Source: Methylotenera sp.
Lineage (GTDB): Bacteria; Pseudomonadota; Gammaproteobacteria; Burkholderiales; Methylophilaceae
Direction: 5' to 3'
Assembly (NCBI GenBank): GCA_013140755.1
Contig: JABFSF010000065.1
Coordinates: 1 to 39,565, forward strand
DNA: 39,565 bases
Both the position numbers and the translations under genes were made by a program. The stretch's first letter is position 1. Every line of letters starts with the position of its first letter. The notes below the pieces were generated by a model. It was not told where the DNA came from and did no database searches. It was given only the letters and a program-made list of their open reading frames with translations. Of the stretch, positions 7,218-26,417 are shown one piece after another.

Positions 7218-10200
7218 TTCACACCTCCTTTCTCATTGGCTTTGCGCTCGAAGATTTCTTCCTCAAAAGAAAGTGCATAACAACAACCTGATTTTTTCCA
7301 AAGTTTTTCTAAGGTAGTGCGCACTTGCTTCAAGCGGTTGCGTACTAATTTTTCATCTTCACCCGATGCGTCATAAGCCAGACGTACCACTGATACTTGA
7401 CCACGTAATTTTTCAGGTAAAGCTGCTACGGCTGCGGCTAAACTGTCCGTCATCATGGATTCGTTCGCTTTAAACGCCTCATTACTAAGCTCCACACGAA
7501 ACACACGGTGAATCGCCGCACCAAAATTGAGCTTATTCAGCTTACCTCTGGTCATGCGCACATCACGCGGATTTTCAGTGGTTACACGGTAGCCGCTAGG
7601 CAAAGTACGCTCATCTAACTTCATCACAAAATTACTGCCACGGAACTCATTTGGCACCTCTGCACAAGTGATATGGAAGCGACCTTGGTCATCAGTGGTG
7701 ACTAACAAACCATTCACTGTGGCTAAGCGCACATTGGCAATTCCTGCTTCACCCTCATCTTGATAACCATTGGCGTTTTTATCATCAAACACTTTGCCGA
7801 TTAAATCTGAGCAATCAAAGGTTGGGTCTGGAATCACGCGCACAGTTGCCGTAGCAGTGTTAGAAACACGCGCATTTGCCAAGTTATTAGTGGCAAATGC
7901 GATATTCACATATTCACCTTCTGCCACACCTGAACCGACTACCAACATTAAACGAATCACACGTTTTTGTTGACCTGCAAAAGTTTGATTAACCCAAGTT
8001 AAGTCGCGTCCATTCACTTTTGGCTCTTTAGCTACACCATCAATTGTGGCTGTGCCTACTTTATATTTAAAACCTGGTGGTACTTGGTCATGAATATCAA
8101 TGTTAGTCAAATTCGCCGTAAGTGTATTGGTTGCAGTAACGGTGTAAGGGACTAAATCACCACGACTCACATTCACCAAAGGTGATGTTTTGGTCATTAA
8201 AATCGCACCGCCCAATATTGGGTCTAGCGGAATATGGTTATTAACAACACCACGACCCCCTGCAATATCCAAGTTGAAACTAAAGAAATAGGTGGTTGGC
8301 TGTACGCCCGTAGGCGGACCAGCTTGCGCCTGAATTGCATCAACCCCTGGTGCTGGACTGGGTGTAAACGCACCTGCCTGAGGTGGAATAATAGTAGAAG
8401 CGGGTGGTAAATAGCCGCCTGGCTGAACCACTTTAATGGTGTAAACACCATCACCTGGACAACCCAGGGGTACTGGGTTACGCAACAAGAATTGATACAT
8501 GCCTGTAGGACCAGTCAGCTGCGTATTGATACCACCAATCAAACAAGTAGCAGGCACAGCAACACCAGCATTTAGCAAGGTTACGGTTGCACCTGCTACA
8601 GGTAAGCGAGTCACCGCGTCATACACTACACCACTTGGATCAAGTGGTAAGTTTTGTTTAATCGTGGTCACACCCGCTACTAATTGCAATTGCGTAATCA
8701 CACCATCAACCACCTGACCATTTCTAGCAGCGTTATCATCTACAGACTGTGCCGCACCATAAATAGCATGGTTAATCGGATCGCGGAAACGCACCGTGTA
8801 GTAAGTATTAGGATCTCCCGTGGTTGATGGGAACAGACCTGCCACTGTGTAGTTGCCATTTGCATCTGTGGTTGATTTACCCACCATCTGACCTAAGCCA
8901 TTCAACACTTCAACAATGAAGCCTTTTACCTGCGCAGTGGCTGGTGAACCATCATTATCAATACGATCATGATTGACATCTAAGTAAACCTTACCTGTCA
9001 CAGAAGCCAAGTTTACAGAATCAAAACTCACAGGCGTTGGATCATTTTCACCTGCCTCATTAGCGTTACCATCTGCATCGGCATCAGGAGCATTGCCATT
9101 ATCAGACAAATCAGTGGCAATAACTGTGCCACCTGATGTTTGCGCAGTCGTGGCAGTAGCTTGGTTATTTTGCACTACCGTTGGTAATGCATGGGTGCCA
9201 AAATCCACCTCTGTTGTAAAGGTAATGGTACAACGCTCACCTGCTAATAGGTTTTGATTTCCAACTAACAAGTTGTTTTGACCAATCCCTGTAAACGGCA
9301 CTGCCGATATGTTTAGCACCGTACCAGTACATGCCGATACTGCTACAGGCGTGCTAATCGTAATACTTTTTGCTGTTGGGAAAGTCACATTTAAATTATC
9401 TGTCACTTGTACATTGGTTGCCGTTACAAATGGAGCAGGGTTAGCTACAATCAATGTATAAGGAATACGGTATTTTTTAACCCCTATTTGCACAATGCCG
9501 CTCACTGACTTAGCCACACCAATCGCCTGAGCTGACAAACTCACGGAGGTAGGAGAGGTATCATCACTTGGATCGCCATTGCCATTGGCATCAGGGTTAG
9601 CATCATCTACGCTGTTATCCGTCACATTGCCACCTACGGGTGATGTGCCTGTAGCCACAGCCGAATTATTAAATGGCCCTTGTGTGACTGGGAAGAAGCG
9701 CACCGTAAATGTAATTTGTGCACTAGATGCCGTACCTGCACCTATATTAGGCAGGCTACTTGCAGCAGGCACAAGCAAGCCTAGCCCAGCACCGCTACCT
9801 GTAAAGGCACCTGAGGATGTAAGTACTGCACCATTCAATGCCCCAGTAATTGCAGGAGCTACCGCAATGGTATATTGACCCGCCGTTGGCACTGCACTTG
9901 CAGTATATGTCCCAAACTTGCCGCTGACATTTGTACCTGTTAAGTCATCCGCTACCTGCACGTTACTTAATGCCGTTTCGCCAGCGTTTCTCACGATGAT
10001 TGTAAAGGGCACGTTGTAAGTACCATCGCCATTATTCACCACTGGTGCGGCTTGTTTTGCCACCCCAATACGTGGAATTGGCACAGGCGTTGGGTCATTC
10101 TCCCCCCCTTCATTGGCATTACCATCACCATCTGGGTCAGGGTCTGTACCATTATCTGAACTATCATTTACACTCGTGCTTGATAGTGCACCTGTGCCTG

Positions 10201-13200
10201 CCGTTGTCGCTTGGTTAGTGTAGGTTTGACCCGCAATAGGCACAAAGCGATACACAATATCTAGCGTACACGTGCCGCCAATGGCGAGTTGCGTAATGCT
10301 AGCAACTTGCGTGTTACCACTGCCATCAAATGCTCCTGTAATGCTGCCCGTTGCACAAGCTCCCACAAATGTAGGTATAGATTGGATTGTATATTGCCCA
10401 GCAGAGAGTCCCGCCGCCGTGCCGCCACTCACAAAAGTACCAAAATGGGGACTGCCACCAGCCATGACGTCACTGACCGTCACACTATCCAGCTCTTCAT
10501 TGCCTAAATTTTCAACCACAAGGCGGAATGTGCCTGTGTAACTGCCATTACTATTGACAAGCAAACCTGATTGCAACGTTTTTGCAATCCCAATTGCTGG
10601 GGTAAATGTATAGGCAACTGGGGTTGGTATATTGTTATTGCTAGGGTCACCATCGCTATCACTATCTGGGTTTGCACCATTATTAGAGGTGTCATTTACA
10701 TTGTTACTTGAAAACTCACCTGTACCTGTGCCTGTGGCTACATTGCTATAACCACCTATAGGGGCAGGTGCACTGGGTTTAAAGCGCATGGTAACGTTAA
10801 ACTCACATGAAGCACCCACTTCTAACCTAGTAAGTGTAGCAATTTGGCTATTACCTGCCGCACCTGTATAACCACCAGTAAGGGTTGCTGTAGTACATGC
10901 GCCTTGAATGCTAGGGGCTGTTTGAATGGTGTATTCATCATTCGCCAAACTTGCCGCCGCACCGCCTGCTTTATAGGTACCAAAAGCTGGGGCAAACCCT
11001 GACATCAGGTCTGATACCGTAAGGTTAATCAAAGGCTCCGTGCCATAGTTTTGTACTTTAATACGGAATGCCGCAGTCACTGTGCCGTTGGCGTTAATGG
11101 TTTCTGCTACAGGTTTTGTTTTAGCCAAACCGATGCGTGGCGTAAAGCTGACATTCACGACTGTTGGGTCGTTTTCGCCTGTTTCGTTGCCAATCCCATT
11201 GTTATTAGTATCAGGGTTTACACCATCATCGGATAAGTCACTGGTTACAATGGTCGTTTGTGCTCCAGTACCCGTAGCATCTGCCTGATTGATATAGCCA
11301 CCCCCTGGCACTGGGTGTGCTGGACGGAAACGTAGGCTGAAATTGACCGTACAGCTGGCACCGATTGCCATACTAGTGATACTTGCTACCGTTGGACTAG
11401 CATCACCTGTGTAAGCCGCATTAACCGACCCATTGGTACATGCGCCAGAGAATGCTGGCGCAGATTGCACGGTGTATTGCCCTGCAGTAAGCGTGGCACC
11501 AGCACCACCTGCAATATAAGACCCAAATTGGGGCGATGCGCCTGAAACATCGTCTGTTACACTCACACTGTTGAGTGCTTCACCACCTGTGTTTTTCACT
11601 AAAAGCTGGAAAGGAACAGTCACCGTGCCATCCGCATTAGTAGTGGAGGCTGTGTTTACGCGCTTAGCTAAAGCCAAGCGTGGGTAAGGCACTGGGGTTG
11701 GATCATTCTCACCTACTTCATTAGCGTTACCATCGCCATCAGAATCAGGGTTGCCGCCATTATCAGAGGTATCGGTCACATTTGTCTCAGTGAAGTCACT
11801 AACACCACTGGTTGCCGCTTGGTTAGTATAAGTCGTCACCGTTGTTGGCATAAAGCGGTAGGCAAACTCAATGATACAGCTTGCACCTGTTGCCATATTA
11901 GCAATCGTCGCTAGTTGCGTATTGCCACCTGCACCTGTGTAACCAGCTGTAATCAGCCCTGAGCTACACCCTCCTGAGAAAGTCGGTGCTAAATGAATAA
12001 CATATTGTCCAGCAGTTAATACTGGCCCTGCAACATTTGTGCCAAATGCAGGGGATGCGCCAGCTAAAACATCGGTAACCACAACATCATGTAGCGGCTC
12101 ATTACCGACATTTTTAACTACTAATCGCACTGGCACTAAAATACTGTTATCAACATCTACAAGCAAGCTTGCAATCGCTAAACTCGTTAATTGTTTTGCA
12201 ATGCCCAAGCCTGATGCATAAGTTGGGCTTACTGGCGTTGGGTCATTTTCACCCACCTCATTGGCCTGATTATCATTATCTGGGTCTGGGTTAGATCCAT
12301 TATCTGAAGTATCTAGCAATTGTGGATTAGTCGCAGAGGTTTGCCCAGAAAGCGCACCTGTGCCACCATTCACCGCAGCTTGATTACAATAACGCCCACC
12401 ACATGAATCGACCACTGGCAATGGCGCAGTTGGGCGCATACGCACGGTAAAGTTAATATTACAAGTTGCCGCAGACGCTAAAGATGGAATGGTTGCAATG
12501 GTTGTGTCAGCACTACCCGTAAACCCTGCATTTAAACCACCACACGTACCGCTCGGTGCAGTTTGAATGGTGTAATCGCCATTAGTTAGCGTTGCCGCAG
12601 CACCACCTGATACAAAGGTACCAAATTTTGGTGCTCCGTCTTTTAAGACATCTGTCACCTCCACACTGTTTAAGGCTTCTAAACTAAAGTTTTCTACCAC
12701 TAACTGGAAGGTAGTGTTAAACGTACCATCCGCATTGGTGGTTGGCCCTGCGGTTACCCGTTTGGCAATACCAATTCGCGCAAGTGGCACTTCAGCAAAG
12801 TTGTAGCCAGTTGTGCTATGGTTGAAGGGCAATATAATCCCCGTTACTTGATCATTGGTTGTTGTGGCATCACCACCTAACAAGCCTGCAGTATCTTTAC
12901 CGTCGTTAAGATAAGCCTCTGTAATAGTACTCTCTGTAATGGTATAGCCTGAAGCATCACTTTCTGGCAAACCAGTAAAAACATAATTACCGCTTGCATC
13001 GGTAGAAACATAACGATCTATAGTTGCACCATCATGACTAATACCTTGGACTCTGATTAAATTGGCAATGTTCGCAATGCCTGTGTCGCCCGCAGTGAAC
13101 AAACCATCATTATTAAAATCACGGAACACGCGACCCGCAATAGAAGACGAACCGACCACTACATTACCTGAGTTTGTATTGTTCAATAAATCAACGTCTT

Positions 13201-16200
13201 TTGATGAGGTAGCAATAGATGCCGTATTAGTCAAAGTTTGCGGGTTACTAGTGACTGCCACCACCTGCACTGGCACCGTAATATCCACAAACGCATCTGC
13301 CGCCAAATTACCTGAGAATTGCCCTAAATTACAGGTAAATGAAGTGCTCCCTGCAGTGCCTGTACATGTGCTACTTGTAATCACGGCAGGTGACCCACCT
13401 GGAATAGTTATACTTGGTGTTCCCGTCAATTCCATCCCTGCGGGTAAAGTATCCGAAACCACAGTACTCGCCGCTTCAGCTAAGCCTAGACCAAACTTAT
13501 TGGTCACTCTAATGGTATAACTAAAGTTATCGCGCAAATTCACTGTGGCTGGTGTTGCCACTTTGCTGGTCACCTCTAAATCTACTTTAGTACGCACCGT
13601 GGTGCCTTCTGCTACGGCGTTATTTCCTGATGGCTCATAACCAAGAGGTGTTTCATCTGAAGACACACTGGCATTATTAGTATAAACGCCCTTAGTTACA
13701 CCGCGCATGGTCACGGTAATGCTACGCGCCGTATTATTTGGAATATATCCAAGATTACAAAGCAACGTACCACCCACCGCATTGACTGCTGGCGTTGTTG
13801 GGCAAGTCCCAAAGGTATTGGTTACTGACTGAAAGCTTAAACCAGCCCCTGGCAATGTATCGGTTATTTGCACATTTTCAGCAGCAGATGGCCCCACATT
13901 GGTTACTGTAATGGTATAAACCGTATCATCCCCCACAGCTACAGGGTCAACTGACTCTGTTTTATTGAGAGTCAAATCAAGGGATGGCACTAAAATACTG
14001 GTGGGCGCAGTAGCTGTATTATTGGCAGGGTGTGCTGTTCCCACCTCAGTAGTGCTAGTAGAGGCTGTTGCACTATTGGTAATGCTCGTACCCCGTGTGG
14101 CGTTATTGGGGCGCACAACTACAATGACCGTTTGTTGCCCCGTATTGTCTATGCTTCCTAAGCTACAAACAATGCTTCTATTACCTGCCGTTGTGGTGAC
14201 ATTTACCCCAGGTGTAGTTGCACAAGCACCTGTAGAAGGTGTAGCCGATACAAAGGTAACATCTAAAGGCAAAGTATCCGTAACTGACACCGCATCCGCG
14301 CCACTTGGGCCATGGTTACCCACGGTAACCACATAAGTTAGATTTTGCCCTGCCGCTACGCTAACGGGAGAGGCTACTTTGGTGGTAAAAATATCCGCAC
14401 GTGGATCAACGGTATTATTCACGGTGGCCGTTTCATTGCTGTGGTCAGGGTCAGGCGTACCCAATGAAATCACATTAGCTGTATTGGTACGTGGTCCACC
14501 ATCGCCACCTGGACGCACTTGTATGGTCACTTTTGGGCAATTCACACCCTGTGTACACACTGGCACTGTAGGGAAATTACAAGTGAGCTGACGACCACGA
14601 CCACTGGGAGAAGTATTACAAGCGGAGCCAACTACTCCATTGCTAATTACTTGCTCAATATAGCCTTCACCTGTTGGTCCAACGTTAGTAGTAATTAAAG
14701 TGTCTAGCACATCGGTCAACAGCACATTGCTAGAAGTATTAAGATACGACGGATTATCATTCACCACTTCTAAGGTGTAAGTCAGCACCTCACCTGCTAC
14801 CACGGTAGCAGGGCTCACGGTTTTAAGCACCCGAATATCAGCTGAATCTACTGTCGTGCCTGATGTCACCGTATAAGTGGTGCTATCACCCGCGTTACAA
14901 GTGGCTAAATTACAGCTTAAAGCATTCACGGTTGCGCCATTTGCAAAAGTCCCACTACCTGCGGCTACTGTAGTCATGACCACAGATGGGCTAGTTGCGC
15001 CAGCTGCAAGCGGTGAACCAGCAGTAAAAGTACGCGTACAGCTAATACTGGCAGGACCAACCACTGGCAAAGGATTGGCACATGCCCAGCCATTTAACGC
15101 ATAAGCCGTGACCGTTAATCCCGCTGGCAGGTTATCAACCACCTCTATATCGCCAAAATAACCTGTAGTACCTGTATTATTCACATTCACATTAAATGTA
15201 AATGGCACACCAGCCACTACCAATGGTGGCGTAGGGCCATTTTTGCCTACCCCTAAATCAACTGTAGGGTCTATCAAGCTTACCCCGCCATCGGTTGCCG
15301 TATTATTCGCACTATTGGGGTCAGGTGTAATTGAGCTAATCGTAGCCGTGTTGGTCACCGCACCAGCCGTTGCTACCGTCACAGGGATGACAATATTACC
15401 TAATGGCTGATTTAACCCAGCAACCCCGCCTGAAGGCTTAGTACAGTTAATAGTTTGTAGTGTACGTGTACATGTCCAGCCATTTTGTGAGGTTAAAAAT
15501 CCTGGATCGATTGTATAGTTGTTGGGGATAATGTCATTGACTACCAAGCTAGATGGCGAGCCGCCCGTGTAACTTGGGTTTAGAATAAAATTAAAACTTG
15601 AACCTACCAATAAATTACCACCCACACTACGTGTTTTAGAAATTGCAACATCAGAACCCGCTGTCGTATTAGTGTTAACAGTGGCAGTATTATCTGCGGT
15701 GTCTGGATCTTGCGGTGTACCAAAAGGAGCACTAGGCTGCAAAGTAACACTCGCCACGTTGGCAATGTTTGAGCCGCCCGCCGCAACAATCACCCCTGTG
15801 ATAGGACCGATATTCACGCTACCGCCACTCGCAATAGAGCCTGCAACATCACAAATAATGGTGCCTACGTTATTGCTACACTCAGAAGGCAAGCTCGTCA
15901 GACTAAATCCAGTTGGAATTGGATCACTTACCCGCAAATAAGTGGCCGTATCTGGACCTGCGTTATTTAATGTAAGGGTGTAACTTAAGGTAGAACCTGA
16001 AGGCTGAGCACCTGCTGGAGAGGCCGCCTTTGTAAGTGCGATATTCGCACCTTTATTGACCGTAGTTGACTCATTATCAACGTTATTTAGTACATCAAAC
16101 TCAGTTTGCCCTGAAGTCGCACTGGCACCCAAGGTAATACCGCCTTGTGTCTCCGACTTTAACTGAATCGTATAGCTTGTAAGCCCATCATTTTGCGCCA

Positions 16201-16564
16201 AATTAGGTAGCGTACACGTTACCGTGCCAGGCCCAGAAGTGCCAATCGCCATACCAATACAACTCACACCTGCGCCCGTAACCCCTTGATAAGTCGCCCC
16301 TCCGCTTACGCTATGTGTTACCGTCACCCCTGTTGCTGTTTCAGTTGCTTCAACCGAGTTATTTTGTACGGTTAGACTGTAAGTGATCACACCACCCGCC
16401 ACAGCAGGGTCTGGCGAGTCCACACTATTCACGATTAAATCAACCACGGCATATGCACTAAGTGGCGTCAATATCATCGCTAACCCCACCCACTTAATTA
16501 AACGCTTAAGTATCTGCGTTTTAATCATCGCGCATGAATCAATTAAATTATAAGGAGTAATCAT
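7214..16564 (-). CDS. Giant DUF11/SdrD_B-repeat surface protein (3116 residues)
   Basis: A long n-region and hydrophobic core end at SAYA39, a plausible signal-peptidase site. About eight DUF11 (CARDB-like Ig) repeats follow, each opening like VDLxVxKxxxPxxVxxG and carrying VTDTLPxG. An SdrD_B/Cna-B domain comes next (GRVFRDFNNDGLFTAGDTGI). Then come seven tandem units of about 180 residues (see 9020-12790), a second Cna-B domain (GKVYLDVNHDRID), a carboxypeptidase-regulatory-like unit, another DUF11 repeat and a third Cna-B domain (GKVFDDKNANGYQDEGEAGI). The last 110 residues are non-repetitive and alpha/beta, with a CysCys pair. Start 16564 is supported by AAGG 6 nt upstream; an in-frame ATG at 16528 would give a shorter signal peptide. 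There is no PEP-CTERM, LPXTG or type I secretion tail. A role in adhesion, biofilm or surface layer is inferred from architecture. Confidence 0.9.
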   Translation of the reverse strand: MITPYNLIDSCAMIKTQILKRLIKWVGLAMILTPLSAYAVVDLIVNSVDSPDPAVAGGVITYSLTVQNNSVEATETATGVTVTHSVSGGATYQGVTGAGVSCIGMAIGTSGPGTVTCTLPNLAQNDGLTSYTIQLKSETQGGITLGASATSGQTEFDVLNNVDNESTTVNKGANIALTKAASPAGAQPSGSTLSYTLTLNNAGPDTATYLRVSDPIPTGFSLTSLPSECSNNVGTIICDVAGSIASGGSVNIGPITGVIVAAGGSNIANVASVTLQPSAPFGTPQDPDTADNTATVNTNTTAGSDVAISKTRSVGGNLLVGSSFNFILNPSYTGGSPSSLVVNDIIPNNYTIDPGFLTSQNGWTCTRTLQTINCTKPSGGVAGLNQPLGNIVIPVTVATAGAVTNTATISSITPDPNSANNTATDGGVSLIDPTVDLGVGKNGPTPPLVVAGVPFTFNVNVNNTGTTGYFGDIEVVDNLPAGLTVTAYALNGWACANPLPVVGPASISCTRTFTAGSPLAAGATSPSVVMTTVAAGSGTFANGATVNALSCNLATCNAGDSTTYTVTSGTTVDSADIRVLKTVSPATVVAGEVLTYTLEVVNDNPSYLNTSSNVLLTDVLDTLITTNVGPTGEGYIEQVISNGVVGSACNTSPSGRGRQLTCNFPTVPVCTQGVNCPKVTIQVRPGGDGGPRTNTANVISLGTPDPDHSNETATVNNTVDPRADIFTTKVASPVSVAAGQNLTYVVTVGNHGPSGADAVSVTDTLPLDVTFVSATPSTGACATTPGVNVTTTAGNRSIVCSLGSIDNTGQQTVIVVVRPNNATRGTSITNSATASTSTTEVGTAHPANNTATAPTSILVPSLDLTLNKTESVDPVAVGDDTVYTITVTNVGPSAAENVQITDTLPGAGLSFQSVTNTFGTCPTTPAVNAVGGTLLCNLGYIPNNTARSITVTMRGVTKGVYTNNASVSSDETPLGYEPSGNNAVAEGTTVRTKVDLEVTSKVATPATVNLRDNFSYTIRVTNKFGLGLAEAASTVVSDTLPAGMELTGTPSITIPGGSPAVITSSTCTGTAGSTSFTCNLGQFSGNLAADAFVDITVPVQVVAVTSNPQTLTNTASIATSSKDVDLLNNTNSGNVVVGSSSIAGRVFRDFNNDGLFTAGDTGIANIANLIRVQGISHDGATIDRYVSTDASGNYVFTGLPESDASGYTITESTITEAYLNDGKDTAGLLGGDATTTNDQVTGIILPFNHSTTGYNFAEVPLARIGIAKRVTAGPTTNADGTFNTTFQLVVENFSLEALNSVEVTDVLKDGAPKFGTFVSGGAAATLTNGDYTIQTAPSGTCGGLNAGFTGSADTTIATIPSLASAATCNINFTVRMRPTAPLPVVDSCGGRYCNQAAVNGGTGALSGQTSATNPQLLDTSDNGSNPDPDNDNQANEVGENDPTPVSPTYASGLGIAKQLTSLAIASLLVDVDNSILVPVRLVVKNVGNEPLHDVVVTDVLAGASPAFGTNVAGPVLTAGQYVIHLAPTFSGGCSSGLITAGYTGAGGNTQLATIANMATGASCIIEFAYRFMPTTVTTYTNQAATSGVSDFTETNVTDTSDNGGNPDSDGDGNANEVGENDPTPVPYPRLALAKRVNTASTTNADGTVTVPFQLLVKNTGGEALNSVSVTDDVSGASPQFGSYIAGGAGATLTAGQYTVQSAPAFSGACTNGSVNAAYTGDASPTVASITSMAIGASCTVNFSLRFRPAHPVPGGGYINQADATGTGAQTTIVTSDLSDDGVNPDTNNNGIGNETGENDPTVVNVSFTPRIGLAKTKPVAETINANGTVTAAFRIKVQNYGTEPLINLTVSDLMSGFAPAFGTYKAGGAAASLANDEYTIQTAPSIQGACTTATLTGGYTGAAGNSQIATLTRLEVGASCEFNVTMRFKPSAPAPIGGYSNVATGTGTGEFSSNNVNDTSNNGANPDSDSDGDPSNNNIPTPVAYTFTPAIGIAKTLQSGLLVNSNGSYTGTFRLVVENLGNEELDSVTVSDVMAGGSPHFGTFVSGGTAAGLSAGQYTIQSIPTFVGACATGSITGAFDGSGNTQVASITQLAIGGTCTLDIVYRFVPIAGQTYTNQATTAGTGALSSTSVNDSSDNGTDPDPDGDGNANEGGENDPTPVPIPRIGVAKQAAPVVNNGDGTYNVPFTIIVRNAGETALSNVQVADDLTGTNVSGKFGTYTASAVPTAGQYTIAVAPAITGALNGAVLTSSGAFTGSGAGLGLLVPAASSLPNIGAGTASSAQITFTVRFFPVTQGPFNNSAVATGTSPVGGNVTDNSVDDANPDANGNGDPSDDTSPTSVSLSAQAIGVAKSVSGIVQIGVKKYRIPYTLIVANPAPFVTATNVQVTDNLNVTFPTAKSITISTPVAVSACTGTVLNISAVPFTGIGQNNLLVGNQNLLAGERCTITFTTEVDFGTHALPTVVQNNQATATTAQTSGGTVIATDLSDNGNAPDADADGNANEAGENDPTPVSFDSVNLASVTGKVYLDVNHDRIDNDGSPATAQVKGFIVEVLNGLGQMVGKSTTDANGNYTVAGLFPSTTGDPNTYYTVRFRDPINHAIYGAAQSVDDNAARNGQVVDGVITQLQLVAGVTTIKQNLPLDPSGVVYDAVTRLPVAGATVTLLNAGVAVPATCLIGGINTQLTGPTGMYQFLLRNPVPLGCPGDGVYTIKVVQPGGYLPPASTIIPPQAGAFTPSPAPGVDAIQAQAGPPTGVQPTTYFFSFNLDIAGGRGVVNNHIPLDPILGGAILMTKTSPLVNVSRGDLVPYTVTATNTLTANLTNIDIHDQVPPGFKYKVGTATIDGVAKEPKVNGRDLTWVNQTFAGQQKRVIRLMLVVGSGVAEGEYVNIAFATNNLANARVSNTATATVRVIPDPTFDCSDLIGKVFDDKNANGYQDEGEAGIANVRLATVNGLLVTTDDQGRFHITCAEVPNEFRGSNFVMKLDERTLPSGYRVTTENPRDVRMTRGKLNKLNFGAAIHRVFRVELSNEAFKANESMMTDSLAAAVAALPEKLRGQVSVVRLAYDASGEDEKLVRNRLKQVRTTLEKLWKKSGCCYALSFEEEIFERKANEKGGVK
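9020..12790 (-). repeat. Seven tandem ~540-bp coding repeats with Asp-rich linkers
   Basis: Seven units open with IGIAK-like motifs, on the plus strand near 12770, 12200, 11670, 11125, 10590, 10050 and 9515, about 530-570 bp apart. Each contains a DUF11-like fold (VxNxGxExLxxVxVxD) and a central FGxxxxG. Most end in an acidic linker such as DPDGDGNANEGGENDPTPV; the sixth and seventh linkers are more diverged. The linkers resemble calcium-binding DxDxDG loops. Units have diverged at the DNA level, so this is an old amplification and not a recent duplication or assembly artefact. Confidence 0.82.
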
Positions 16565-19019: not shown

Positions 19020-20090
19020 TCAGAAGTGGTAAGGCTTACTCAAATATCGCACCGCTTGTAGCATCGCTGCCGCATTCTCTGGTGGCGTCCACTGCGTAAT
19101 GCCATGGCCTAAGTTAAATACATGCCCATGACCTTGACCGTAACTTGCCAGCACTTTAGCCACTTCTTTCTCTATTGCTTCTGGGGTTGAAAGTAAAATC
19201 GCTGGGTCTAAGTTGCCTTGCAAGGCAACTTTATTGCCCACACGCTGACGTGCACTGCCAATATCTACCGCCCAATCTAACCCAAGCGCGTCTGCGCCAA
19301 TTTCCGCTTGCGCTTCTAGCCATAATGCACCACCTTTCGTAAATACGATGCTAGGCACTTTGCGACCATCGTTATTTTTAATTAAACCAGCTACAATTTT
19401 TTGCATATAGCTAAGCGAAAATTCAATATAAGCACTATGTGAAAGCGCACCGCCCCATGAATCAAATATCATCACGGCTTGTGCGCCTGCTGCAATTTGT
19501 GCATTCAAGTATTGAATCACGGTTTGTGCGGTAGTTTCTAAAATGTGGTGGAGCAAATCAGGACGCGCATACGCCATTTTTTTAGTGGTTAAAAAATCTG
19601 TACCGCCTTTACCTTCCACCATGTAAGTCGCAAGCGTCCACGGGCTACCGCTAAAACCAATGAGCGGCACACGACCATTTAACGCTTTACGAATACTACT
19701 CACTGCATCAAACACATATTGCAACTTGCTCATGTCAGGGATTGCTAACTTTTGAATATCGGCCTCTAGCTGCAAAGTGCGCTCAAATTTTGGACCTTCG
19801 CCCTCTTCAAAATACAAACCCAAACCCATCGCATCAGGTACGGTAAGAATATCCGAGAATAAAATGGAAGCATCAAGCAAGGGATAGCGGTCTAGCGGTT
19901 GAAGTGTTACATCTGTGGCAAATTGCGCATTTTTACAAAGTTGTAAAAAACTACCTGCAGTTTTGCGAGTTTCACGATACTCTGGTAAATAGCGCCCTGC
20001 TTGACGCATCATCCACACAGGCGTGTAGTCTGTTGGTTGGCGCATTAAAGCACGTAAAAAAGTATCGTTTTGTAAGTTTACCATTGTCAT
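19020..20090 (-). CDS. hemE: HemE, uroporphyrinogen III decarboxylase
   Basis: HemE converts uroporphyrinogen III to coproporphyrinogen III in heme synthesis, in the cytosol. The 356 residues match family length. Key segments are [15 protein letters not shown] (substrate-contact arginines), [19 protein letters not shown] with its catalytic Asp, [23 protein letters not shown] and the C-terminal NLGHGI. Two ATGs compete (20090 and 20084) with no decisive Shine-Dalgarno; either gives an N-terminus close to the family's. The window also encodes several heme proteins (diheme cytochrome, catalase-like, SOUL), but hemE has its own promoter and I see no sign of co-regulation. Confidence 0.97.
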
Positions 20091-20122
20091 TTACCAGCAA
20101 TATTTTAGTATTTTAAGTGTGC

Positions 20123-20131
20123 ATTATAACA
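20123..20131 (-). promoter_or_regulatory. Extended -10 promoter of hemE
   Basis: The minus strand has TGTTATAAT, a consensus -10 with the TGn extension. No good -35 is present. The predicted start is about 20116, giving a leader of about 26 nt. It lies past the stop of the catalase-like gene, so hemE need not depend on that operon. Confidence 0.6.
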
Positions 20132-20156
20132 TGCGCTTACACCTCGCTATTTCTGC

Positions 20157-21245
20157 TTACCAATCCAATGTTTGTGGAATTTGCGTGTTGTTCACTTGAT
20201 GTCGATAGCTTGAACTCGCTTCATATACCACCCTTCTGGCTCTATTCAGTGCACCAATCGGGCGATGCGCTTCTAATGCATTCCAAGGCGAAAAGGCTAA
20301 ATCTTCACAAAACTGTTGCTGTGTTGGCGTATCAAATTTTTGCTTCAAAATCGTGATTTTTGCCACTGGCAAAAATGGTGAGTCGTCTTCTTTCCATAAC
20401 ACTGTCGCGTCTTCGATTGGCATTTTTTTATGCGTATCTTGCACCTGCACCATCAACTGCATACAGGCGTCACCTACAGCCAACTCTTTAGCTAAAGTAT
20501 TTTTTAAAAAATTGGAATCATCCGATTGCTCAGAGGCCTGACTCTTCGGCATTTCACATGCCTGCATCATAAATTTAATATTGTTAGGTCCTAATTTGTA
20601 GGCAGTATTACTAAAATACTGTGTCCATAGCGGGCTTTTAGGAGGTGGCGCGTAGGCGGTAACTAGTTGCCACAATTCTCTTAAACGCCATTTAAAAGGG
20701 TTGTAGCCCTGTATAAAGTATGTTGGATCACCTTTGGTCGCCACAAATTGATTATAGTCATCTACGCTCGTGACAAAAAACGCAGGGCTATTGTGTGCGA
20801 TAAATTCTTGAGTCGTTCCACCATTTAAATTTTGACCCGCATTGAGTATTTTAATCGCCATGCCCCGCGCATCTTTAGCGCGGTCATCTGCATTTGCCAT
20901 ATTAGAACCGCTATTTGAAAAGCGTATCCATGACTTATAACGGGTATCCGCTTTTGCAAATACACCATACTGCAATGGTGCATCAATGTCTCGATTCACA
21001 TCCACATAAGCTCTTACGCAAGCATGACCCTTCGCATGCACACCACGTGCAGCGTAAGTGGTTTTCAAACCTTCCACGATATTTTTTGCTTTTTCTGCGG
21101 CTATTTGGATTTGCGCCGCCTCACCCGCAGGAATCACTTCTTTCGTTGTTACAACAGCATGGGTTTGCAAATGATAAGCAACAAGTGCCGTCAACAAGAG
21201 CAGAATAACAAGCAAAGCAAAACCTATTTTTTTAATGCGTTTCAT
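20157..21245 (-). CDS. Membrane-anchored catalase-like heme protein (y4iL / allene-oxide-synthase-like branch)
   Basis: The protein has 362 residues. One N-terminal hydrophobic helix (about 7-27) suggests a signal anchor with the heme domain in the periplasm. The distal heme motif is RGVHAKGHA with His70, corresponding to RxxHxxG of catalases. FIAHNSPAFFVTSVDDY corresponds to the catalase NTPVFFIRD region. The proximal ligand motif RxxxY appears as RRVVY (Arg337, Tyr341). The protein is far shorter than a true catalase (about 480 or more residues), lacks the NADPH/flavodoxin extensions, and fits the minimal catalase-related family that includes fatty-acid hydroperoxide-converting allene oxide synthases. 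It is the last gene of a four-gene operon, 6 nt after the acyltransferase stop, with no evident Shine-Dalgarno. The substrate is unknown; H2O2 or lipid hydroperoxide are both possible. Confidence 0.83.
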   Translation of the reverse strand: MKRIKKIGFALLVILLLLTALVAYHLQTHAVVTTKEVIPAGEAAQIQIAAEKAKNIVEGLKTTYAARGVHAKGHACVRAYVDVNRDIDAPLQYGVFAKADTRYKSWIRFSNSGSNMANADDRAKDARGMAIKILNAGQNLNGGTTQEFIAHNSPAFFVTSVDDYNQFVATKGDPTYFIQGYNPFKWRLRELWQLVTAYAPPPKSPLWTQYFSNTAYKLGPNNIKFMMQACEMPKSQASEQSDDSNFLKNTLAKELAVGDACMQLMVQVQDTHKKMPIEDATVLWKEDDSPFLPVAKITILKQKFDTPTQQQFCEDLAFSPWNALEAHRPIGALNRARRVVYEASSSYRHQVNNTQIPQTLDW

Positions 21246-21251
21246 CTGAGT

Positions 21252-22535
21252 TTAGCGCCTTAAATTCATGATTGGCTTTTCGATAAACAAATACATCAGT
21301 GTAGCAACAACAAAGCTGAGAATACTGCTCACAATAAATCCATATAACAACACTTCACCCATCGTCCAATGATATTGTTCTGGCATTGTTATGGTTAAAT
21401 TCACCATGACAGGTATGACGAGAATCATCACGACTAAATGAATCAGGTAGAGGGAATAAGAGAGGCTCGCTATCGGATACCAAAAAGGGTGAGAAAAGAA
21501 CTTTCTAAAAACATTAGCGAGCCAACTTTGTTGCAATAGCATCGCAATAATAAGTAAGCCCACACCTACGGAAAACAAGGTGTGATTAAAGATATAGTAC
21601 AAATTATGCATCGTTTGATAAGCATCATAAGCAGGTGAGAATGCTGGAAAAACCATAAAAAATACGATTAAACTCACACCCAAGAACGTTAAAAAAACAC
21701 CTAAACGGGAGTTTGCTACTAGCGTGAGTTTCTCTTTGTGAAAATGCATCGTATAAGCGACCAAACAACCTACCACAAGGCCGCCAAAGCGCGTGTGTAG
21801 ATTATCGTAGAGTACCGTAATGAAATGATGGTAAAAAGCATCGCTCGTATAAATTGCACTACTTGGTGTTGTACGTATGATGTCATCTGTAAAAACAATG
21901 CCCGTATTGACAGCCATTGATATAAAAAACATCCAAATCAACACCAAACCTGGTCTTTTGCTCCATTTGAGAATCGCAATCAGAATTAAAGGGTAGATGA
22001 AGTAAAACTGCTCTTCCACTGCCAAGCTCCAAGTCCAGCCTGCAGCTTGTTGTTCATAATGGATAAAGTTACTCACATACAGATAATTCGCCCAAATCAT
22101 ATCGCTATTGTTAGCCGATAATAGCCAATAAATCGTGAGCATAAAATAATAGGCGGGCGTTAAGCGCAAATAACGACGTATGTAAAAATTTTTAAGGTTT
22201 AAATGTCCTTCTTTGGAATACTGGCGTAACAAAATACCCGAAATCAAAAAGCCACTCATGACAAAAAACACATCTACACCTTTATCACCATTCCAAGCCC
22301 ATGTCCAAGCCCAGCCCAATTTTTCAAGAATGCTCGCAACAGACTCGTTGGGGTTAGAAAGGTCATAAACCAAAAAAGTGTGGTAAACCAAAACTAGCAA
22401 AATAGATAAAGCACGGATACCGTCTATAGGCGCAAAGTTTGTAGCGCGCCTTTGATATATAGACTGAAAGTTTTCTTTAAAAAAAAATGCTTGATGAAGT
22501 GCACTTTTGGACATAGCTACATCTTGAGTCATCAT
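21252..22535 (-). CDS. Acyltransferase-3 family integral membrane protein (OafA/YrhL-like)
   Basis: Members transfer acyl groups across the inner membrane to sugars, lipopolysaccharide or other acceptors. The 427-residue protein shows about ten membrane helices. Family signatures are DGIRALSILLVLVYH, with the R-x10-H motif (Arg41, His52), DVFFVMSGFLISG, IRRYLRLTPAYY and WSLAVEEQFYFIYP. It has no C-terminal SGNH domain, so the acyl group is probably delivered directly. AAAGGA lies just upstream of a double ATG (22535 or 22532). It sits 32 nt after the diheme cytochrome gene and 6 nt before the catalase-like gene, inside a lipid/heme operon, so the acyl acceptor may be related to that pathway. 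The acceptor cannot be read from sequence. Confidence 0.9.
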   Translation of the reverse strand: MMTQDVAMSKSALHQAFFFKENFQSIYQRRATNFAPIDGIRALSILLVLVYHTFLVYDLSNPNESVASILEKLGWAWTWAWNGDKGVDVFFVMSGFLISGILLRQYSKEGHLNLKNFYIRRYLRLTPAYYFMLTIYWLLSANNSDMIWANYLYVSNFIHYEQQAAGWTWSLAVEEQFYFIYPLILIAILKWSKRPGLVLIWMFFISMAVNTGIVFTDDIIRTTPSSAIYTSDAFYHHFITVLYDNLHTRFGGLVVGCLVAYTMHFHKEKLTLVANSRLGVFLTFLGVSLIVFFMVFPAFSPAYDAYQTMHNLYYIFNHTLFSVGVGLLIIAMLLQQSWLANVFRKFFSHPFWYPIASLSYSLYLIHLVVMILVIPVMVNLTITMPEQYHWTMGEVLLYGFIVSSILSFVVATLMYLFIEKPIMNLRR

Positions 22536-22567
22536 TTTTCCTTTATTTTTTCACTCGCTGTAATTAT

Positions 22568-24268
22568 TTAAAGTGTTTTTAAATATTCAATAAGTGCCCA
22601 GCGCTCATTTTCAGTTAAAGCTGGCACATTGCCATAACCAGCACCATATTCATGCCCCCCGTTACTATTGCCTGGTAGCGTTGTATCAAATAAGAAACTC
22701 TCTCGGACTTGTACCATTTCGAATCCCACGTGTTTAGAATCAAACTCCATTGAGCCTAGATAAAACTGCTTCACCCGATTTTTTGCTGGTAATAGTAATT
22801 GATATAAATTAGGCACCGAGCCATTGTGTAGAAAAGGCGCACTAGTCCAAACGCCATTTAATGGGCGCGCCTTATAGGCAAGCAAAGCTCTTTGCGAAAC
22901 CTCCTGACCACTTTCAATGATTTTCCCATCTACATATTTCGGCGGATGAATTTCATCCCCATGACCGAACCGTTGCGCATCACGCTGAGCTAAATAGGCT
23001 TGTAAAGGATTATTTTTAATAATCCCCACCATGAAGTTATTGGCAATATCAATGGCGGGGGCTATTTTTGGTAATGGCTCACCTACCACATAATAACGTG
23101 GCTTGCCTTCAAGCTTGCCTGATTTTCCTTTGTAAAAAATTGCATTACTTGCCATTAAAGAGTCTGTTTTGATTTCGCCTAATGTACTCATCCGCACTTG
23201 AATCATGCGTTTCGGATCTGTCCGACTGATATCAAGATGACAGCTTATGCAATGCCGCTCGTACAAGGTGCGACCTTGCTTGGCCAACGCTTTATTGATA
23301 CTAGGCAATTGTGCTGGCCATTGTGGAGAATGTAACCTTCCTACTACTTTCTCAAGCCTTCTTAACTCTTGTGTTTGAATTGAAGACTTATAACCCCCAT
23401 CAATAAAGCCAAGCCAATGTGTTGTATTTGTTTCAATATCCCCAAAAACACCAATAACTTCGCCAATATTGCGTGCAAAAGCACCTATATTTGAATTAGA
23501 CTGTGAACCATTCCACTCTACATAATCATGCTGTGGCGTATCCCAAAGATAAGGGTAGCTCGTCGGCGCGTTGGGTGGGTTCGTATTGCTTTTTTCTCCC
23601 GTTGCCACTAATGCGCGATTTAATATTGCACCAAACGCATCTAACCTACCATATCCATAAGGCACTTCCGTATGATTCTCAATGCTGTAAGCTTGCCTTT
23701 TTTGATATTCGTTTGTGAGCGCGAGTTTTAATTGCGCTTTTTTCTTTTCACTGGCTTTCTCCCCCAATAGGTGTCGTTGAAATCGTGTGAATTTATCCGT
23801 ATCTTCTAACGTTACTTTGAGAGACAAGGTGAGCTCAGACAAGAATTTTTGCAAATCGAACAAAGTTTGCCCCCCATCTATAATCATGACATGCTTTTTA
23901 TAAGTAATTTGTTGAGTATGACATGCGGCACAAGTTGGTCCGAGATAATCTCGATTGCGAGCAAAACCAATCGGCAAACCATCTGGATTCTTTTGACTTT
24001 TTTGCGTCGGAATTAATCCAAAACGTAACAAATTATTATCGCTACGAAATAACTGATTGTTGTCAGCTTGTTCCAGATGTAGAAAATAATCGTAGGGAAG
24101 CAAACGAGAGCCTTGATCAGTAAAATAAAAATATTGACGATCTTTTTCAGTCCAATTTTGCTGAAGATAAACGTGATCTTTAGCTTCAGCAACTGCAAAT
24201 AATGCGTGTGTTGCCAGCCAAAATAACACTAAAAACAATAAGTGCGTCATACTACTCTTCTTCATCAT
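22568..24268 (-). CDS. Exported diheme c-type cytochrome, RoxA / diheme peroxidase-dioxygenase family
   Basis: The protein has 566 residues with a signal peptide (core LLFLVLFWLATHALF, cleavage near residue 29). Two c-heme sites are present: CAACH (Cys113, Cys116, His117) and CISCH (Cys340, Cys343, His344). The C-terminal half has LNGVWTSAPFLHNGSVPNLY (His481), the signature shared by RoxA-type rubber oxygenases and related diheme peroxidase-like enzymes. The length exceeds classical CcpA/MauG (about 320-380) and resembles RoxA and the Pseudomonas diheme oleate dioxygenase/diol synthase group. The function is thus probably oxygenation or peroxide chemistry on a hydrophobic substrate in the periplasm, which is an inference. 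AAAGGAG precedes the ATG. It lies 9 nt after the lipase-like gene, so the two are co-transcribed. Confidence 0.86.
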   Translation of the reverse strand: MMKKSSMTHLLFLVLFWLATHALFAVAEAKDHVYLQQNWTEKDRQYFYFTDQGSRLLPYDYFLHLEQADNNQLFRSDNNLLRFGLIPTQKSQKNPDGLPIGFARNRDYLGPTCAACHTQQITYKKHVMIIDGGQTLFDLQKFLSELTLSLKVTLEDTDKFTRFQRHLLGEKASEKKKAQLKLALTNEYQKRQAYSIENHTEVPYGYGRLDAFGAILNRALVATGEKSNTNPPNAPTSYPYLWDTPQHDYVEWNGSQSNSNIGAFARNIGEVIGVFGDIETNTTHWLGFIDGGYKSSIQTQELRRLEKVVGRLHSPQWPAQLPSINKALAKQGRTLYERHCISCHLDISRTDPKRMIQVRMSTLGEIKTDSLMASNAIFYKGKSGKLEGKPRYYVVGEPLPKIAPAIDIANNFMVGIIKNNPLQAYLAQRDAQRFGHGDEIHPPKYVDGKIIESGQEVSQRALLAYKARPLNGVWTSAPFLHNGSVPNLYQLLLPAKNRVKQFYLGSMEFDSKHVGFEMVQVRESFLFDTTLPGNSNGGHEYGAGYGNVPALTENERWALIEYLKTL

Positions 24269-24277
24269 AAGCTCCTT

Positions 24278-25714
24278 TTATTGCACAGAGTCTCTAGAAA
24301 GCAAAGTGTTAAGTAAATTATCTTGAAAATTCAGGTTCCCCGTTAAGCTTTCATGCGACTCACATAAAAAGAATGATTGCTCTATGGGCAAATGAATGAA
24401 CTTATGACGCTTAACGCTTGGGTCTAAAGCATTTCTGCCGAGCAATGAAGCCTTAGTCACAGAGCCGTCACCTGGCTCTAAAAGTAATGCATCATAATCA
24501 ACCCCAACTACTGGCTGCGTCACTTCGCTTGGTGTCATTCTAATAATAGAGTCTCCGTTTACCTCTTCTACCAAAATTCTGGCTGATGTTAAGGTGCACC
24601 CACCGCCAAAGACAATCAGCTTTGGCTCTTTTGTAGGAGTTTCAATACTTAACGACCATACAAAACGTCTTGCGCGTTCTAGATTTTTTTCAAAGTATTT
24701 TTCAAAGGTGATGAGGTATTGCTCACCCTCAGTTTTGTTTTTATATTTATCTAAGATTCGTTGCCTGACTTTAGGATTAAAGATAGACCATTCAAAACGC
24801 CGCCAAATTTCTACATCAAATAAATCTCGATCAAGTGGCGTACCATCGCTAGTCACTATCCAGTCAATAAGCGAGTGTGGGAATAATTGATACAAGCTAG
24901 GCATACTTGCCAACGTTTCTGTGCCAATTTCATTAACGCCTATATCAAGTCCGCCGATAAAAAGATTAAGCGTTCTCACGGAACCCAAATTCGGCGTGCC
25001 CAGCAAAATGACGCGGCGAACACGCTCTGCACCGTACATATTACATTTTTCAACAAATTGATTATCGTTGATAACATCCTGCTTACCATAACGAATATAG
25101 TAACGTGCAATTAAACCACCCATGCTGTGGGCAACAATATCAACTTTAAGCTTAGGATCATTGTAGTCTTTTCTGACTTGCTCTATGAAGTCCGCCAACT
25201 GACCCGCACTAATCACATTATCTTGGCGCCAATCATACAAAAAAACATAATAATTTTTTTGTTTTGGATTTACTTTCGCGCCTACCTTAGAAAGTTTATA
25301 TCCGCCTATTTTGGATAAAGTATGAATGATTTCCCCATAAAAATCCTTACCCGCTGCACCGTCAAAAATATCATAGGGCAACGCACTGCTAACCTTTGGC
25401 TCTAACGTTTCTGGGTTAATTTCAAAAGCCGTATCTGAATAATCATGTGTGAATAAACGACTAATTGCCCCTGGCCAAACATCATCTTTTGTTTGTGTAT
25501 CTTTCAGCCTACTACCTAATACTCCGTGGATAAAAATAACGGGGGGTTGATCCGTAACCATCATAGACTCCATATATAGGCGGTGCAAATCAGGCTTAAA
25601 TACTTTACTGTTTGCAAAAATACCCGCAATAAAAACAATAATCAATAATAATAAAACAAACAAATATTGATTGAAAAAAGTTTTTTTTAAGGCTTTATAA
25701 GATAATTTAAGCAT
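24278..25714 (-). CDS. LCAT/lipase-like alpha/beta hydrolase, membrane-anchored
   Basis: The protein has 478 residues. One N-terminal transmembrane helix (about 17-34) places the catalytic domain in the periplasm. Features of the lecithin:cholesterol acyltransferase / phospholipase family are the oxyanion segment VIFIHGVLGSRL, a conserved Trp-rich YDWRQ region, the nucleophile elbow VAHSMGGLIARYY (Ser197), the acid-loop motif EPGDGSVTKAS and a late His (probably in ESHESL). Expected activities are lipid deacylation or transacylation. It is the first gene of the four-gene operon, with a candidate promoter about 115 nt upstream. The ATG lacks an obvious Shine-Dalgarno. The family assignment is good; substrate is unknown, but a lipid is likely. 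Confidence 0.85.
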   Translation of the reverse strand: MLKLSYKALKKTFFNQYLFVLLLLIIVFIAGIFANSKVFKPDLHRLYMESMMVTDQPPVIFIHGVLGSRLKDTQTKDDVWPGAISRLFTHDYSDTAFEINPETLEPKVSSALPYDIFDGAAGKDFYGEIIHTLSKIGGYKLSKVGAKVNPKQKNYYVFLYDWRQDNVISAGQLADFIEQVRKDYNDPKLKVDIVAHSMGGLIARYYIRYGKQDVINDNQFVEKCNMYGAERVRRVILLGTPNLGSVRTLNLFIGGLDIGVNEIGTETLASMPSLYQLFPHSLIDWIVTSDGTPLDRDLFDVEIWRRFEWSIFNPKVRQRILDKYKNKTEGEQYLITFEKYFEKNLERARRFVWSLSIETPTKEPKLIVFGGGCTLTSARILVEEVNGDSIIRMTPSEVTQPVVGVDYDALLLEPGDGSVTKASLLGRNALDPSVKRHKFIHLPIEQSFFLCESHESLTGNLNFQDNLLNTLLSRDSVQ

Positions 25715-25829
25715 ACAAGTCAGCTATGAAATGAAGAAAAAAACGCAGTTACTGAGTATTAGTCAGACCAGTTTAAAAAAGCTTACAAAATAAGTTACTC
25801 ATTACTGTCCAATGATAGTACCTGATTTT

Positions 25830-25859
25830 TTTATAGGCTATCTAATAAATTTACAGCAA
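25830..25859 (-). promoter_or_regulatory. Candidate promoter of the lipase-diheme-acyltransferase-catalase operon
   Basis: On the minus strand TTGCTG (25854-25859) and TATAAA (25830-25835) are separated by 18 bp, giving a start near 25823 and a leader of about 110 nt. The match is moderate; read-through from the GNAT gene upstream cannot be excluded because I see no terminator between them. Confidence 0.45.
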
Positions 25860-25880
25860 CGCCAACCCTGAACTAAACAC

Positions 25881-26417
25881 TTACTTATTTAATATTTTTT
25901 CTAGTAACTCTAGATTTAAAGTATTCACTTTCACTTGCCACATCGCTGGATTCACTGGAAAGTCTTCAAAAACACCCGTACGTTGATAACCTCGCCTTTC
26001 ATAAAAGGCGATTAACTCGTATCGTAGTGCAATAACATGCATCGCCAGTTTATTGGCTTTTAAATGATTTTTTGCATACGCTTCAGCATAAGTGAGTAGT
26101 TGCTTACCCACCCCATTACCCTGCAAATTTGGATTCACCGCAAACATCCCAATATGGGTGACTGCCACTAAGCTTTCTAAACAAATAGTACCCACAATGG
26201 TTTGGTTTTGTAGGCACAATAAAATGATTTGATGTGGCGAAATAATGATACTTTTGACTTGTTTTGGAGTCGTTCGCAAGCCATCTAGCAAGTCGGCTTC
26301 AGTCGTCCAACCTTGTCGGCTTGTTTCCCCACGATAGGCCGCATTGACTAAGTCTGAAATTTGCGCGGCATCTGCAATGTTGGCAAGACGAAAGGACAGC
26401 ACTTGAGGTGCGCTCAT
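25881..26417 (-). CDS. GNAT family N-acetyltransferase
   Basis: A 178-residue single-domain acetyltransferase with the acetyl-CoA pyrophosphate loop NPNLQGNGVGKQLL (QGNGVG at 99-104), the preceding IGMFAVNP strand and the late FYERRGYQRTG motif typical of GNATs acting on small molecules or amino acids. Its ATG overlaps the stop of the symporter gene by 4 nt (ATGA), so the two are translationally coupled. The substrate cannot be inferred. Confidence 0.9.
   Translation of the reverse strand: MSAPQVLSFRLANIADAAQISDLVNAAYRGETSRQGWTTEADLLDGLRTTPKQVKSIIISPHQIILLCLQNQTIVGTICLESLVAVTHIGMFAVNPNLQGNGVGKQLLTYAEAYAKNHLKANKLAMHVIALRYELIAFYERRGYQRTGVFEDFPVNPAMWQVKVNTLNLELLEKILNK

Follow-up and report, generated by a model that had tools for sequence, protein, structure and literature searches.

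A conserved four-gene operon of Methylotenera with a RoxA-like diheme cytochrome and a minimal catalase-like protein: a possible lipid-oxygenation module

The contig JABFSF010000065.1 of Methylotenera sp. (assembly GCA_013140755.1; genome of 2.6 Mb), analysed over its 39,565 nt and termed the window below, carries an operon of four minus-strand open reading frames (ORFs) that runs from position 25714 to 20157 with intergenic gaps of 9, 32 and 6 nt in the ORF list. In order, the genes encode an LCAT-like hydrolase (lcat), a diheme c-type cytochrome (diheme), an acyltransferase-3 protein (acyl3) and a catalase-like heme protein (cat; Table 1). These genes form a conserved unit that exceeds chance, because the same four recur in the same order in at least six loci of other genomes. 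We regard as evenly balanced the proposal that the operon encodes an oxylipin-type module for lipid oxygenation, located in the periplasm or the inner membrane, for which we infer the substrate and every chemical step.

An earlier interpretation made from the DNA alone (the sequence-only reading) had named the four families, their common strand and their spacing, and the ORF list and the Pfam and NCBIfam scores (obtained with query sequences lacking the first Met) confirm it. It had also ascribed a signal peptide or membrane segments to all four proteins. By eye, each has a hydrophobic N-terminus or multiple membrane segments, and the structure models place helices at residues 4-24 of the diheme protein and 2-26 of the catalase-like protein.

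A genome scan found relatives encoded at 465 loci, of which the best 80 were taken. The order lcat-diheme-acyl3-cat was found in at least six loci outside the window, all of the Methylophaga type (L024, L025, L026, L027, L033 and L035; L numbers denote loci and G numbers genomes), although the diheme gene of L035 is split into two frames. This agrees with the co-occurrence that the sequence-only reading had proposed looking for. Shorter arrangements also exist. Specifically, L031 carries lcat-diheme-cat, L030 and L032 carry diheme-cat on contigs that start inside the diheme gene (with an 87-aa ORF between the two genes in L032), and L028 and L029 carry lcat-diheme only. Locus L005 of G059, a genome of the same family as that of the window, sits within L030. 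Among 57 genomes of the family to which the L024 genome belongs (E ≤ 1e-20), lcat occurs in eight, diheme in the same eight and the catalase-like gene in six of these, as raw counts uncorrected for kinship; G397 holds more than one copy each of lcat and diheme.

Distances in the diheme and catalase-like trees correlate across 14 loci (r 0.77, a value reached in 2 of 5000 permutations) and within a closer group of nine (r 0.74, reached in 0 of 5000), with L052 and L035 left out for a broken catalase-like and a broken diheme gene, respectively. Furthermore, the window and L030 are sisters in both trees. In a class-wide sample of 274 genomes searched at E 1e-10, catalase-like matches occur in 13 (a broken frame in G186, weak matches in G198 and G245) and diheme matches in 17, some of which cover only the C-terminal region. 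Both genes are present in five genomes, versus about 0.8 expected under independence. The sequence-only reading had named unlinked neighbourhoods as evidence that would count against it; the two genes are adjacent in three of the five (the window genome, G262 and G375, the latter two of one genus and with the order TPR, SMP-30-like, diheme, catalase-like), and the remaining two are considered below.

The diheme protein belongs to the NCBIfam family NF040606, di-heme-cytochrome C peroxidase (589.7 bits; cut-off 150), and carries a RoxA-like domain (PF21419, 59.8 bits; cut-off 26.7). Its structure model (predicted local distance difference test (pLDDT) 90.2, built with 49 sequences) has only one PDB fold match at E ≤ 0.001, namely RoxA 4b2n (E 3.4e-10; template modelling (TM) scores 0.48 and 0.43), one of the proteins with which the sequence-only reading had proposed a comparison. 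RoxA also ranks first in the profile search, and the 31 PDB fold matches of the model include no structure named as a classical cytochrome c peroxidase or MauG. Residues H117, H344, H481 and W252 are kept in all 49 sequences and H539 in 48, the remaining sequence having a gap. The protein has the two CXXCH motifs, the HNGSV His (H481) and the second-heme His (H539) of the FadCcp subfamily (PA2077/PA2078 type). W252 aligns with the inter-heme Trp of RoxA-like homologues, and the residue before it, at the position of RoxA F301, is Gln in 37 and Glu in 12 of the 49 sequences. We do not file the protein as a FadCcp member, because the window has Glu where PA2077 and PA2078 of that group have Gln. 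Membership in the rubber dioxygenases RoxA, RoxB and RoxC is rejected on scores of 56.7-73.4 bits against cut-offs of 900-1000. RoxA-like relatives occur in two of the 274 class-sample genomes at E 1e-30, none above the model cut-off, so that the active-site alignment contains no true RoxA; the diheme sequence alignment has no clear counterpart of RoxA F317. Pairs of adjoining RoxA-like diheme genes, reminiscent of the PA2077/PA2078 pair, were seen in relatives of the same order (L006-L013, in G082, G088, G095 and G099).

The catalase-like protein belongs to the catalase superfamily (PF00199, 54 bits; cut-off 25), and R67, H70, R108, R337, Y341 and R348, which include the distal His (H70), the proximal Arg (R337) and Tyr (Y341) and the heme-binding Arg residues, are kept in 14 of 14 sequences. 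Its structure model (pLDDT 81.5, built with 14 sequences) first matches the coral allene oxide synthase (AOS) 1u5u (E 1.6e-13, TM 0.69), followed by a fungal catalase (5.3e-13) and the mycobacterial catalase-related protein 3e4y (9.6e-13). These matches indicate a minimal catalase fold, which coral AOS shares, and do not make the protein an AOS; in the sequence profile search, true catalases rank above 1u5u. The distal Asn of H2O2-dismutating catalases (human Asn148) is not found at the aligned position, which holds His in 9, Ile in 4 and Thr in 1 of the 14 sequences, although a one-residue alignment shift is possible because the following residue is Asn in 11 of them. Asn mutants alter the rate and not the chemistry, according to a title cited in PMC5617202, which is also our source for the residue roles of coral AOS. 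The simple reading as an ordinary second catalase is rejected, because the protein is a minimal version with no distal Asn at the aligned position, and because its genome holds a separate, stronger catalase match (605 bits).

The hydrolase is a member of the LCAT family (PF02450, 39.3 bits; cut-off 21) with candidate catalytic residues S197 (in AHSMGG), D416 (in GDGSV) and H437 or H454. All are invariant in nine sequences and, by the roles of such residues in the LCAT family, would form the Ser-Asp-His triad. The acyltransferase is an Acyl_transf_3 protein (PF01757, 79.6 bits; cut-off 31). Its gene occupies the same place in at least six other loci but is missing between the diheme and catalase-like genes of L030, L031 and L032, and L028 and L029 have neither it nor the catalase-like gene there. 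The sequence-only reading had made the acyltransferase a pathway member; as a core step it is rejected, the gene being optional across loci.

A survey of neighbouring genes suggests that partners of the diheme gene can be exchanged. Among the 77 of the best 80 loci with a called diheme ORF (ORFs of at least 150 aa counted, further diheme ORFs skipped), a cytochrome P450 gene is the nearest ORF in 14 (L045, L047, L048, L058, L062, L069, L072, L075, L078, L086, L094, L096, L098 and L101) and the second in one. None lies further out than two ORFs in the fetched flanks, though most of the other ORFs (514 of 793) are at a distance of three or more; the P450 profile was derived from the neighbours themselves and could miss remote P450s. 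Eight of these 15 loci are titled Nitrosomonas, Nitrosovibrio or Nitrosomonadaceae and therefore represent fewer independent events. L100, one of the three loci without a called diheme ORF, also has an adjacent P450. A catalase-like gene lies within two ORFs of diheme in 12 of the 77 loci (nine of them the window's own close group), at three in one and at six in two. No locus has both a P450 and a catalase-like gene within two genes, and in L096 and L101 the P450 adjoins diheme with the catalase-like gene six away. In the class-wide sample, 11 diheme regions from 11 of the 17 genomes gave an adjacent P450 in four, a catalase-like gene in two, a patatin overlapping on the opposite strand in one and nothing recognised in four.

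By eye, the heme loop of most of the P450s in the 14 nearest-neighbour loci fits FxxGxHxCxG, and the P450 beside the diheme gene of a Prosthecobacter metagenome-assembled genome (L058, 10685-12265) has an apparent lipoprotein-type signal after an internal Met; an extracytoplasmic P450 there would suit peroxide-driven chemistry. A reading of the P450s near diheme genes as known hydroperoxide isomerases is unsupported; for the single one that was searched, the best PDB matches are ordinary bacterial P450s.

Plasmid records match the diheme protein in 65 cases and the catalase-like protein in 124. The loci viewed were L016-L021 for the former and L016, L022 and L023 for the latter, L016 being in both sets. 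A patatin-like gene accompanies the diheme and catalase-like genes in Rhizobium NGR234 (L016) and in L052. In L017, a P450 is annotated two genes downstream and the opposite strand carries a patatin-like gene (23 bits, under the cut-off of 27.7). L023 has no diheme match. On a Methylobacterium currus plasmid (L022, 4449-7017), a catalase-like protein that is 38% identical to that of the window, the first-listed plasmid match, adjoins the gene of a cyclooxygenase-like peroxidase that finds its best PDB matches among cyclooxygenases (E 1e-57). This gene pair is the enzyme pairing reported for Nostoc, here on a plasmid. In a class-sample genome (L111, 5357-8623), a catalase-like domain is fused to an An_peroxidase (animal-haem-peroxidase) domain in a protein of 1088 aa. 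Also, a 731-aa catalase-like frame lies on the same strand as, and near, a MauG-like cytochrome gene (38.5 bits, under cut-off) in L112 (2304-6697), perhaps another pairing of a catalase-like with a diheme protein.

Two known systems come close. In Nostoc punctiforme, a linoleate 10S-dioxygenase is accompanied by a catalase-related lyase that cleaves its 10S-hydroperoxide (Brash et al., 2014, via PMC9579011 and PMC13049297); the two are on separate genes according to PMC13049297, and PMC11719350 mentions a cyanobacterial fusion. The operon would likewise team a fatty-acid dioxygenase with a catalase-related heme protein acting on its hydroperoxide. The Nostoc dioxygenase is cyclooxygenase-like, whereas in the operon a diheme c-type cytochrome would take that part, and a lipase gene precedes it. 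As to a dioxygenase partner of the Nostoc-type lyase, the catalase-like gene of the window adjoins a RoxA-like gene and its 38%-identical relative a cyclooxygenase-like one, all with putative activities. In Pseudomonas aeruginosa, PA2077 forms a fatty-acid hydroperoxide from oleate and requires both hemes; the residue corresponding to RoxA F301 is Gln in both PA2077 and PA2078, and the former retains the Trp (PMC4496055). The diheme protein resembles these periplasmic, RoxA-like FadCcp proteins in its two CXXCH motifs, its HNGSVP motif and the inter-heme Trp of PA2077. It differs in the Glu before that Trp, a comparison made with published residues, and two diheme paralogues act in turn in P. 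aeruginosa, in contrast to one diheme and one catalase-like protein here. The diol-synthase oxylipins of P. aeruginosa act in motility and biofilm formation (PMC5155153).

The other likenesses are to single enzymes and to one gene cluster. Like coral AOS 1u5u (PMC5617202), the catalase-like protein has a minimal catalase fold (362 versus 366 aa), a distal His, a proximal Tyr and heme-binding Arg residues. Unlike it, the protein has no lipoxygenase fusion, carries Val or Ala before the distal His and aligns a His with the distal Asn position; the two are 15% identical in the fold match. RoxA, which cleaves polyisoprene (PMC4496055), shares with the diheme protein the fold, both heme sites, H539 (RoxA H641 by alignment) and, via RoxA-like homologues, the inter-heme Trp, but the diheme protein scores far under the RoxA, RoxB and RoxC cut-offs and has no polyisoprene link. 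The symbiotic-plasmid cluster of NGR234 (y4iL region) also combines catalase-like, diheme and lipase-type genes on one strand. There, a patatin-like gene (26.0 bits, just below the cut-off of 27.7) replaces LCAT, and two members are additional, one a RoxA-like gene or gene fragment and the other of unknown family. Among the papers listed by full-text literature searches, which mostly did not extend to subscription papers, none was found to describe this four-gene set. The statement in the sequence-only reading that it knew of no described system with this set is qualified by two close precedents, the Nostoc pair and the diheme oleate diol synthase of P. aeruginosa.

In the module that we propose, the LCAT-like hydrolase would free, or later remove, an acyl chain, and the RoxA-like cytochrome would oxygenate an unsaturated chain with O2 to form a hydroperoxide, the reaction of PA2077 on oleate. 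The catalase-like protein could then rearrange, cleave or reduce the hydroperoxide, in the manner of the Nostoc catalase-related hydroperoxide lyase, and the optional acyltransferase might modify the product or an envelope acceptor. The whole operon would be a diheme version of the dioxygenase and catalase-related pair that brings a lipase of its own and acts in the periplasm or facing it. Comparative evidence partly supports lipid oxygenation and makes it more likely, through the observed gene order, co-occurrence, folds, heme-ligand residues and exchanged partners. The oxylipin-like interpretation of the sequence-only reading thus retains its conserved unit, RoxA fold, minimal catalase fold and lipase-like, P450 and cyclooxygenase-like neighbours elsewhere, and loses the acyltransferase as a core step and the specific AOS reaction.

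Several observations weigh against lipid oxygenation. The fold match of the catalase-like model to AOS, the comparison that the sequence-only reading had suggested, does come first but is barely better than those to true catalases. The Thr directly before the distal His of coral AOS is absent (Ala in 8 and Val in 6 of 14 sequences), and therefore the specific AOS reaction is not indicated. Two Methylophaga-type genomes (L028 and L029) have no catalase-like gene genome-wide at E 1e-10, although the L028 genome, metagenome-assembled and of 1.5 Mb, may be incomplete. The diheme and catalase-like trees differ in the placement of L104/L105, L016, L031/L032 and L033. In G176 and G312, two genomes of one genus that make up the rest of the five class-sample genomes with both genes, these are on different contigs. 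The hydrolase family occurs in seven of the 274 genomes, and G348 (88% complete), which has the strongest match after the window, lacks a diheme or catalase-like match, which speaks against strict dependence. LCAT- or patatin-like matches were found in only 12 of the best 80 loci (nine LCAT and three patatin, the two lipase families searched), and four of the six viewed plasmid diheme loci (L018-L021) have neither a catalase-like match nor an annotated lipase or P450.

Other settings of the catalase-like family point the same way. In L106/L107 its gene neighbours that of a Clp ATPase. L109 (1-2923) encodes a fusion of a catalase-like domain with LodA, which belongs to a family of H2O2-releasing amino-acid oxidases, and in L108 the catalase-like gene adjoins a Dyp-type peroxidase relative; the peroxide of this family therefore need not be a lipid's. 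Catalase-like/LodA fusions are also described in PMC4417212. The L108 genes form a tight same-strand cluster (3043-7080) of a 434-aa protein of unknown family, the Dyp-type relative and the catalase-like protein.

These last two settings would fit periplasmic peroxide defence, with the diheme protein as an H2O2 peroxidase, the catalase-like protein removing H2O2 or lipid hydroperoxides, the hydrolase excising damaged acyl chains and the acyltransferase repairing the envelope. NCBIfam does label the diheme family a peroxidase, and a lipid-repair role would account for the lipase too. Nevertheless we consider this unlikely, given that RoxA is the sole significant fold match, that classical cytochrome c peroxidases and MauG go unnamed among the others, that the distal Asn position is otherwise occupied in the catalase-like proteins, that the genome already has its 605-bit catalase match and that P450 and cyclooxygenase-like partners better suit synthesis. 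The RoxA match favours a RoxA-type reaction that cleaves an isoprenoid, be it a hopanoid, a carotenoid, a sterol ester or polyisoprene, in which the LCAT-like enzyme would act on an ester, and LCAT enzymes are known to act on sterols. The low RoxA, RoxB and RoxC scores and the replacement of the hydrophobic RoxA F301 by Gln or Glu in the alignment, as by Gln in the fatty-acid enzymes PA2077 and PA2078, make such cleavage improbable. Finally, acyltransferase-3 enzymes often modify glycans, and the operon could serve envelope or glycan modification with heme proteins of unrelated roles as chance neighbours. With the acyltransferase dispensable, lcat, diheme and cat staying together in two families and the diheme and catalase-like tree distances correlated, this has very little likelihood.

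Beyond the lipid-oxygenation reading of the operon itself, the exchanged partners tentatively suggest a modular bacterial family of heme lipid-oxygenation cassettes, so far unrecognised, with an exchangeable dioxygenase, hydroperoxide-converting enzyme and lipase. The parts might be a RoxA-like diheme or a cyclooxygenase-like protein, a minimal catalase or a P450, and an LCAT or a patatin, respectively. Such cassettes would possibly parallel, with unrelated proteins, the fungal dioxygenase-P450 fusions and the cyanobacterial dioxygenase/catalase-related pair. If so, oxylipin-type lipid chemistry would be commoner in bacteria than the few known cases, with interchangeable heme enzymes making the products, here outside the cytoplasm. 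This would also suggest a function for the 'di-heme-cytochrome C peroxidase' family and the y4iL-type 'catalases', and the role of bacterial oxylipins would become testable in methylotrophs.

The operon is rare among relatives and has probably moved. At E 0.001 the diheme protein has matches in six of 121 related genomes, its own included; its own genome and G059 match over most of the length and the other four by the C-terminal part, one with extra short pieces. Its closest homologues among the best 80 of 465 loci are that of G059 (64%) and otherwise those of Methylophaga-type genomes, which belong to another family (61-67%). The regions upstream of hemE in 11 of 12 same-genus genomes, with a reach of 0.8 to 8.7 kb (3.4 kb or less in four), contain neither the operon genes nor any of eight further neighbours queried. 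The operon therefore lies at a synteny break (window 19020-26417), with no clean empty site apparent. Rarity nearby, together with closest homologues in another family, therefore fits horizontal transfer.

Table 1. Genes of the operon and its upstream gap, in window coordinates.
Feature	Position	Strand	Details
LCAT-like serine hydrolase, N-terminal hydrophobic segment, first operon gene	24278..25714	-	478 aa; PF02450
Diheme c-type cytochrome, NF040606 / RoxA-like, CXXCH at H117 and H344	22568..24268	-	566 aa
Acyltransferase-3 membrane protein, optional member	21252..22535	-	427 aa; PF01757
Minimal catalase-like heme protein, y4iL type, N-terminal hydrophobic helix	20157..21245	-	362 aa; PF00199
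Gap upstream of operon, before GNAT gene; presumed promoter region	25715..25880	-	Coordinates from ORF list

The operon is flanked by a GNAT gene and a dicarboxylate symporter gene upstream and by hemE downstream, and its G+C content is about 0.38-0.42 versus 0.42-0.48 in the scanned flanks. A promoter scan of 19900-26000 gave 22 sites versus 15.7 (standard deviation 4.2) in shuffled sequences, with zero promoter-like sites in the upstream gap, and we claim no promoter there. A terminator scan of the same region gave 5 versus 5.3 in shuffles. Elsewhere in the window, a gene for a 3116-aa protein with eight DUF11 stretches (7214-16564) is followed directly by one for a 1411-aa OmpA-domain protein (2982-7217).

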